Origin: Mobiluncus curtisii subsp. curtisii ATCC 35241
GTDB taxonomy: Bacteria > Actinomycetota > Actinomycetes > Actinomycetales > Actinomycetaceae
Direction of reading: 5' to 3'
DNA length: 64,000 nucleotides
Assembly: GCF_000146285.1 (NCBI RefSeq)
Contig: NZ_GL385912.1
Span: 785,271-849,270 of the forward strand
Part shown: in pieces, positions 2,732 to 3,996 of the stretch
Numbering within the stretch: position 1 is the stretch's first letter
Layout of the letters: every line of letters begins with the position of its first letter
Position numbers and translations under genes: made by a program
Notes under the pieces: generated by a model
The model's database searches: none
What the model was told of the DNA's origin: nothing
What the model saw: only the letters and a program-made list of their open reading frames with translations

Positions 2732-2759
2732 GCTAGACCTAGAGCGGTTGTCTCTCCGA

Positions 2760-2888
2760 CACGAACGACCGATTTCAACGCACTCCCACCCAGAACCTCG
2801 GGCAGCAAATGACCATTACCTGCGGCTTTACCGACAGCCCGGCGTACAATCACCCGTTTTCCCCGGCGAAATCGGTCGTTCATGCACC
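2760..2888. repeat. 129-bp direct repeat, copy 1, with inverted ends
   Basis: This aligns without gaps to 3868-3996, with about 113 of 129 identical positions. Its ends are inverted repeats: a 17-bp left arm, CACGAACGACCGATTTC, and a right arm with one mismatch. The right arm overlaps the stop codon of the nuclease-like gene at 2880. Identity is concentrated in the arms and the central block. Confidence 0.8.
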
Positions 2889-3800
2889 GCACCGGACCAG
2901 ATAGCGCTGTATCGGGTCTAAGAATCGACCGCTTATCACATCGTTATACGTAAAACGCATGGTGTCGAAACCACGCAGCAACGCTTCACGAGATCGAGCG
3001 CGATCCTTATCAAACTCAGCACGACCGCAGTGATATTCATAGCCATCAAATTCCACGATGAGATTACCGATTAAAAAATCCACCTCACCTATACCTTTTA
3101 AAGTCACCCCGGTTTTAACTTCCGCGTAGAGCTGCTCTCGGAGCTGTAAACGCCCCACAGTTTCCAGTGGCGACCGGGCTGCCGCATCGCAATCCTCTAG
3201 GGCTGCCTGAATCGCTGAGCGGCGAAGGTGAGCGACGGCATTATCCAGTATTTCTCGATTTACCAGGCGTTTGTTTAAAACTGAATCCAGTATCACCACT
3301 CTCTCCATGTGGGTGTGCACACACTGCAAGGCTCGAAGAGTCGCGTTCAGCGGGCTGGCTAAATACGGACTGGAATAGCAATCATCTGCGTAAGCATAAC
3401 CTTGACAGCCTCCTGGGAAGGTCTGCCGGAATCCACTTTTCGCGGAATGCAACCATTTCTCGCGATGCAACAGGAACTTGCCGGAATGGCGACTGTGATA
3501 GTCCTTGCTCACCGCCAAGTGAATACGTTCGGGGTTCTTCCAAAGAGCTACCCCCATCATCTCTAATGCGCTCACACAAGTCAGACAGCCTCGGTGAACG
3601 AAGGCAGCGACCACCCGAGAATCAACAGAGGGTAGAAATAGTGTGCTGCGTCCTTGACGCAATACCAGTTCCGACTCTAAGGCACGTCTGACTTTCTGCC
3701 TGCTGGTGGCTTTGATTGCTGCTCCCATAGTGGCTACCCCACCCTGGTCTTCCAGATACTCCTGCACAGTGTCATTCATGCATTTGATGATGTTATACAT
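2880..3800 (-). CDS. AbiEi-like antitoxin domain / DUF559 (Vsr-like) endonuclease-fold protein
   Basis: A protein of about 306 residues. The N-terminal 60 residues resemble the winged-helix domain of AbiEi-type antitoxins. The middle is the AbiEi-like region typical of actinobacterial 'type IV TA AbiEi family' proteins. The C-terminal 90 residues look like DUF559, related to Vsr/PD-(D/E)XK nucleases: an EVDF segment, then VEFDGYEYH, then a basic RxRSRE helix. No partner toxin gene is adjacent. The start is uncertain: ATG 3800 is used, with GTG 3830 and ATG 3779 also in frame, none with a clear ribosome site. The gene is flanked by 129-bp direct repeats, and its stop codon lies inside the downstream copy. 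Family assignment is by recognition; nuclease activity and any defence role are inference. Confidence 0.65.
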   Translation of the reverse strand: MYNIIKCMNDTVQEYLEDQGGVATMGAAIKATSRQKVRRALESELVLRQGRSTLFLPSVDSRVVAAFVHRGCLTCVSALEMMGVALWKNPERIHLAVSKDYHSRHSGKFLLHREKWLHSAKSGFRQTFPGGCQGYAYADDCYSSPYLASPLNATLRALQCVHTHMERVVILDSVLNKRLVNREILDNAVAHLRRSAIQAALEDCDAAARSPLETVGRLQLREQLYAEVKTGVTLKGIGEVDFLIGNLIVEFDGYEYHCGRAEFDKDRARSREALLRGFDTMRFTYNDVISGRFLDPIQRYLVRCGA

Positions 3801-3867
3801 CTTTAGCTTATGCAAGCTTTGATTTGTCACTTGTGGATAACTCGTATTTTGGACAGATTATTGCTTG

Positions 3868-3996
3868 CACGAACGACCGATTTCAACGCACCCCCGACCA
3901 GAACTTCGAGTAGCAAATGACCATCACCTGCGGCTTTACCTACACCCCGGCGTACATACACCCGAATTCCCCGGCGAAATCGGTCACTCGTGCACC
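3868..3996. repeat. 129-bp direct repeat, copy 2, with inverted ends
   Basis: Second copy of the element at 2760-2888, in the same orientation, about 40 bp upstream of the outermost possible start of the nuclease-like gene. Its left arm is identical to that of copy 1; the right arm has two mismatches to the left arm. The rest of 3831-4058 holds no supported gene. Confidence 0.8.

Follow-up and report, generated by a model that had tools for sequence, protein, structure and literature searches.

A gene for a predicted DNA-binding nuclease in Mobiluncus curtisii lies alone between two directly repeated copies of a short element, and these two are among 19 copies of that element in the 2.15-Mb genome. 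Homologues of the nuclease are bracketed in the same manner, by different elements, in many actinomycete genera. This recurrence of gene plus element points to an undescribed two-part genetic system. The explanation that we consider probable is an arrangement similar to that of REPINs and their RAYT enzymes but built on an unrelated nuclease, wherein the elements would be the recognition sites of the protein. To our knowledge, DUF559/AbiEi-type genes, which recur through the actinomycete genomes searched, have no assigned role.

A repeat search of the window (the whole 64,000-nucleotide stretch of DNA that was analyzed) recovers the direct repeats that a preliminary description had reported. 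The two copies (2760-2888 and 3868-3996) are 129 nt each, align without gaps at 88% identity, and have inverted ends of 17-19 nt that are 89-94% complementary. The repeat unit is redefined here as a 127-bp element (Table 1). The TGA stop codon of the nuclease gene falls inside the downstream copy, as had also been noticed, and the boundary of the upstream copy is ~36 bp before the GTG codon at 3830 and ~88 bp before the ATG codon at 3779. The latter is probably the translation start, because it coincides with the beginning of homologues and because the structural model is disordered over residues 1-13. Judging from the window ORFs, the neighbors of the gene encode a CW-binding-repeat protein and a GlgB-like enzyme. 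There is no transposase gene in the interval itself, in agreement with the preliminary description, and no AbiEii nucleotidyltransferase toxin gene among the adjoining ORFs. Plasmid records contain no DNA match. The window has no Rfam family at gathering score, and near other elements Rfam matches are at chance level only. The bracket is beyond chance, given that the same inverted ends occur at ~91-bp spacing at 19 genome sites and that no such flanks were found around any of 32 other similarly sized ORFs in the window.

Table 1. Positions of the nuclease gene, its predicted domains and the two flanking elements in the window
Feature	Position	Strand	Remarks
AbiEi-like/Vsr-like nuclease gene	2880..3830	-	316 aa counted from GTG; probable start ATG 3777-3779
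AbiEi-like DNA-binding half (predicted), residues 17-215	3186..3782	-	VIA-align Z 8.8 to AbiEi 6y8q; Foldseek E 1.6e-4
Vsr/EDxHD-type nuclease domain (predicted), residues 216-316	2883..3185	-	VIA-align Z 12.7 to I-Bth0305I 3r3p, 10.8 to Vsr 1cw0
127-bp element, downstream (3') copy	2759..2885	+	G000:C1:788029-788155; stop codon of the gene (2880-2882) in its last bases
127-bp element, upstream (5') copy	3867..3993	+	G000:C1:789137-789263; same orientation as downstream copy
Left arm (inverted end), downstream copy	2759..2777	+	
Right arm (inverted end), downstream copy	2867..2885	-	
Left arm, upstream copy	3867..3885	+	
Right arm, upstream copy	3975..3993	-	
Asymmetric central core, downstream copy	2808..2831	+	AAATGACCATTACCTGCGGCTTTA
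Central core, upstream copy	3916..3939	+	

According to its predicted structure (mean pLDDT 88, from a model built on a 50-sequence alignment), the nuclease joins an AbiEi-like N-terminal half, predicted to bind DNA, to a Vsr/homing-endonuclease domain resembling I-Bth0305I. The N-terminal half has the AbiEi antitoxin fold, with a weaker match to Rv2827c (Z 6.6), and PADLOC matches the protein to AbiEi (E 6e-5). The C-terminal domain has both the fold and the catalytic residues of the Vsr/EDxHD superfamily. Specifically, conservation across homologues is at least 90% at E223, D251, E260, D262, H267, and D276. The Pfam DUF559 match is sub-threshold by sequence (E 0.002), although the domain is clear by structure. 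The proposal of a homing-like nuclease accords with the structure comparison, in which the closest folds are those of a homing endonuclease and Vsr. A second, weakly similar DUF559-type ORF lies just outside the window (G000:C1:775418-775675).

When the M. curtisii genome (G000) is searched with one repeat, the pair itself is returned, followed by many short matches to the repeat ends. A mismatch-tolerant search with a 16-bp end reveals that these ends occur in inverted pairs ~107 bp apart. All 19 elements carry both arms and are 126-128 bp long, mostly exactly 127 bp. Their ends read GCACGAAYGACCGATTTCA ... TGAAATCGGTCRTTCGTGC and form 19-bp inverted arms, and the elements have in common an asymmetric central core with the family consensus AAATCGC-N4-ACCTGCGGTTTTA. 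The interior is hypervariable, and blastn aligns no more than three copies at length, namely the window pair and one other. Placement is mostly intergenic. In G000 and likewise in G003, the genome of a second Mobiluncus species, 15 of 19 elements fall to one side of oriC at a distance of about 110-680 kb; in G000 they are about 110-660 kb from dnaA. This zone spans 686-1230 kb in G000:C1 (dnaA at 1341.8 kb) and 2105 kb to 459 kb in G003:C1 (dnaA at 1996 kb), and element positions that are not common to the two genomes fall in the same oriC-side zone. Neither the arm pair nor the core was found in IMG/VR viral contigs. A set of 84,980 named species genomes, from which the genus itself was apparently left out, yields only 11 scattered matches, in unrelated phyla and with varying spacing, which is approximately the level of chance.

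The second species carries at least 19 elements, as found by a covariance model search, and its nuclease gene encodes an 84% identical protein that is bracketed likewise in the same neighborhood. Element positions in the two genomes are mostly orthologous, with the bracket and 15 element positions conserved. Over these 15 orthologous pairs, divergence amounts to 9% in the arms, 19% in the core, and 37% and 30% in the two spacers, with gaps in only 6 of ~1900 columns. An unconstrained sequence that had changed by a third should lose its length, and thus the element ends, core, and spacing appear from these alignments to be under selection in place. Where paired arm changes are compared between lineages, both sides have changed at 13 of 18 positions, and the observed covariation is reached by none of 500 shuffles, a figure that is inflated by related sequences.

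A third species of the genus (G002) and other genera of the family have elements that match in length class and core but differ in their arms. In G002 there are at least 11 clear elements, and no bracketed gene was found near those examined, which indicates that gene and elements are separable. Known arm motifs do not occur beside the DUF559 genes of G002 or of another species of the genus (G001). At loci that are not orthologous between G000 and G003, precise empty sites were not found, and other repeat modules occupy those intergenic regions. Two further observations concern these relatives. At four G002 loci (L196, L198, L200, and L201), one arm type, TGTGGTTATTCAGG, flanks the element on both outer sides as tandem half-sites spaced by ~21 bp, which gives the appearance of additional binding sites. 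The G001 genome, which lacks the element family of the window, has an AbiEi-Vsr gene of its own that is bracketed by a different repeat containing GCCGCACCTGTAGCCAAATC (L116; G001:C13:192245-192613).

The link between gene and element holds well beyond this genus. A search that began from the element, using a covariance model, found a homologue of the window protein between two elements in G113, G169, and G185. For the reverse test, homologues were gathered by protein similarity from 39 relatives and then from 148 genomes of the class; the resulting 73 testable homologues include a few from the element search, such as those of G113, G169, G185, and G190. A gene was scored as bracketed when a 13-mer and its reverse complement 45-130 bp away were present on both of its sides. 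By this measure, 30 of the 73 homologues lie between two copies of an element that is specific to the lineage, has inverted ends, and measures ~70-130 bp. The left and right spans are equal in 22 of the 30, and 43 homologues lack a bracket detectable by the 13-mer test. The same settings gave no bracket among 210 ORFs elsewhere and one among 289 swapped flanks, and this sole positive joined two units with similar arms. Thus the earlier suspicion that repeats and nuclease belong together is borne out by recurrence of the bracket in many genera, around homologues and with repeats that differ. The preliminary description had named, as grounds for its refutation, repeats that are common all over the genome and unlinked to DUF559 genes; the elements are both dispersed and linked.

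The arms of the bracketing elements differ in nearly every lineage, and arm similarity between units has a weak positive relation to protein similarity (Mantel p 0.046). When bracket-derived elements were searched in 14 of the bracketed genomes, many copies were found in G240 and G012, whereas some other genomes have few or the bracket alone. In G349, all 17 sampled copies are exactly 80 bp, and in G320, 9 of 10 sampled copies are 81 bp. In both genomes the 18-bp ends hardly vary, the interior does, and a short core at the center occurs in either orientation. One genome, G077 (L264/L281), has two closely similar elements in the same orientation ~0.8 kb apart (C1:88223-88338 and C1:89143-89258) with no recognizable nuclease between them, which is possibly a decayed or emptied unit.

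A second genus, represented by 49 genomes, provides both states of one locus. The locus is flanked by pfs-like and TetR-like genes and has the order element-gene-element in G185, G113, G364, and G169, and in a diverged form in G173 and G181. Exactly one element with the same flanks is present at this locus in G125, G167, and G175, which are single-repeat sites of the kind that the preliminary description had proposed to look for in other strains. The single-element G125 and the full G364 are sisters at the right flank (support 100), and the single-element G167 and the full G173 are sisters at the left flank (support 91). Given such sister pairs with opposite states, close relatives have probably switched from one to the other more than once. 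Recombination between the direct repeats would explain gene loss that leaves a single element behind, and would not need the nuclease. The right element of G364 and the lone element of G125 are almost the same in sequence, while the left element of G364 is of another type, a pattern that would fit arrival of the gene together with the left element.

The nearest parallel in organization is REPIN-RAYT (PMC3116915, PMC8049555, PMC8266576), in which two conserved ends are separated by a spacer whose length is important and a single-copy, vertically inherited enzyme gene is flanked by the repeats (PMC3116915, PMC8049555). Common to both are intergenic doublets of inverted conserved ends with fixed spacing and a variable interior, and a single vertically inherited enzyme gene that is flanked by such dispersed elements and matched to them by lineage. 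The differences are that the enzyme here is an AbiEi-Vsr nuclease rather than a Y1/HUH (IS200/IS605-like) transposase, that the present elements have an asymmetric core in the middle, and that their copies number in the tens rather than the hundreds. No match to the Y1 transposase family (PF01797) was found in G000 or G003, and the single RAYT/Y1 gene of G002 has none of these arms nearby. REPs are short palindromes with a GTAG/CGTC tag, whereas the 19-bp arms have no internal hairpin and, on inspection, no GTAG tag. Membership in REPIN-RAYT is ruled out by the lack of a Y1 enzyme and of REP palindromes.

Each half of the protein also has its own known relatives. The C-terminal domain shares its fold and conserved acidic and histidine residues with Vsr/EDxHD homing endonucleases such as I-Bth0305I. 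Known members of this superfamily either home to a single site or act as nicking enzymes in mismatch repair, and we know of none that has dispersed cognate elements in its own host. The N-terminal half shares its fold with the AbiEi antitoxins of the type IV AbiE toxin-antitoxin system, of which S. agalactiae AbiEi and M. tuberculosis Rv2827c bind inverted repeats of ~23 bp and AbiEi proteins are DNA-binding autoregulators (PMC7319586). The differences from AbiE are the added nuclease domain, the lack of an adjacent AbiEii toxin gene, and inverted repeats that are ~91 bp apart, occur at both ends of the gene, and are dispersed. In open-access PMC text, we found no paper that joins DUF559 with inverted repeats or AbiEi with DUF559.

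We hypothesize that a single gene for a DNA-binding nuclease is accompanied by a genome-wide set of short cognate-site elements. Each element has inverted arms of ~18-20 bp, rigidly spaced, and a small asymmetric core in the interval. The AbiEi-like half would most likely bind the arms, one protein per arm, and the rigid spacing would allow two or more proteins to meet over the core. The Vsr/homing-type domain might then nick or cut the DNA held between the arms, probably at or near the core. Of the two direct repeats that bracket the gene, the upstream copy could double as an autoregulatory operator. The gene and one element could be lost from, or gained at, an element, such that a single-element site is left or filled. 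In Mobiluncus, the element set would be old, vertically inherited, and held intact by selection, as are REPINs with a RAYT enzyme. The observations behind this hypothesis are the element architecture, its dispersal and constraint, the repeated association with one protein family, the two states of the locus in the second genus, and the predicted fold; arm binding, nicking or cutting and its position, copying of elements by the nuclease, and a benefit to the host are inferred. An active nuclease with ~19 intact sites on its own chromosome would be dangerous, and it must therefore nick, be tightly repressed, or be inactive.

If this hypothesis is correct, the system would be a second, independently evolved REPIN-RAYT arrangement that uses a nuclease in place of a transposase, and it would help to explain the small populations of short repeats that bacteria keep for millions of years. 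The linkage also gives each bracketed gene a predicted DNA substrate, namely its own flanking element. We hold only tentatively to a stronger proposal, that these units are a new class of mobile or domesticated element. Here the nuclease would recognize the two inverted arms, cut or nick the core, and spread or persist by converting single elements into element-gene-element, and the dispersed elements would be kept by selection for some host function.

A selfish homing cassette could make use of the same parts. The nuclease would cut single elements in other chromosome copies or in incoming DNA, and repair from an element-gene-element donor would insert the gene and duplicate the element, such that single elements are empty sites. 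The homing-endonuclease fold, the presence of filled sites and lone elements at the same locus in closely related genomes, and the G364 elements that look as if the gene and left element had arrived together are all consistent with this idea. However, a filled site keeps two intact elements and would not be immune to its own cut, unlike known homing genes. Moreover, two Mobiluncus species have the bracket in the same place, and loss by recombination yields the same pattern. We consider homing unlikely. For the self-mobilizing cassette of the preliminary description, the link between gene and repeat stands, but active self-mobilization is unproven: two species share the positions of the locus and of most elements, and neither target-site duplications nor a circle was observed. 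The interpretation given there is partly supported overall, and the repeats and gene that it described form part of a larger system.

The elements might instead be binding sites through which the protein regulates genes or organizes the nucleoid, with nuclease activity vestigial or secondary. Their oriC-side concentration, which G003 shares, favors such a role, as do the strong constraint in place and the autoregulatory habit of AbiEi proteins. Against it, the catalytic residues are conserved throughout the family, element orientation is mixed, and recurrent bracketing of the gene on both sides would be unneeded for regulation; the oriC-side bias is known for these elements alone. We judge regulation or nucleoid organization by itself to be quite unlikely. 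We disfavor as very improbable an ordinary MITE family, in which dead or non-autonomous transposons of some transposase happen to lie around a nuclease gene; the MITE pair carrying a defense gene that had been suggested is likewise unlikely. Like MITEs and solo-LTR-like elements, these elements are short, inverted-ended, dispersed, and intergenic, and occur as lone copies or as a pair around a gene. Unlike them, they come with neither a transposase nor a reverse transcriptase. Arm matches in G000 form ~127-bp pairs, among which no longer copy was seen; no target-site duplication was evident on inspection of the flanks of 38 elements; length, ends, and core are constrained over the 15 orthologous pairs; and the same protein family is bracketed in many genera by unrelated ends. 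A structured RNA encoded by the element is scarcely credible despite arms that pair and co-vary, since no Rfam family matches and the core occurs in either orientation in G349. Mismatches within the arms (41 G.T vs 52 A.C, p 0.30) have no G:U strand bias, which favors a DNA site and speaks against an RNA stem formed by the arms.

Other repeats and pairs were encountered in the same genomes. A second intergenic family, ~100 bp and palindromic, is present at L177:3420-3640 (G000:C1:1230540-1230639) with matches in L162, L186, L189, and L192. Identity between its members at non-orthologous sites in two species reaches 100%, and they often lie beside 127-bp elements. Islands of these repeats also contain GTAGCTGCCAATAATGGCAGCTAC and TGTGCCATATATGGCACA palindromes. 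Finally, L162:7637-9165 and L170:3001-5751 are orthologous pairs of elements in the same orientation that surround different genes, a 205-aa ORF in G003 and ATPase-like and RelE-like ORFs in G000.
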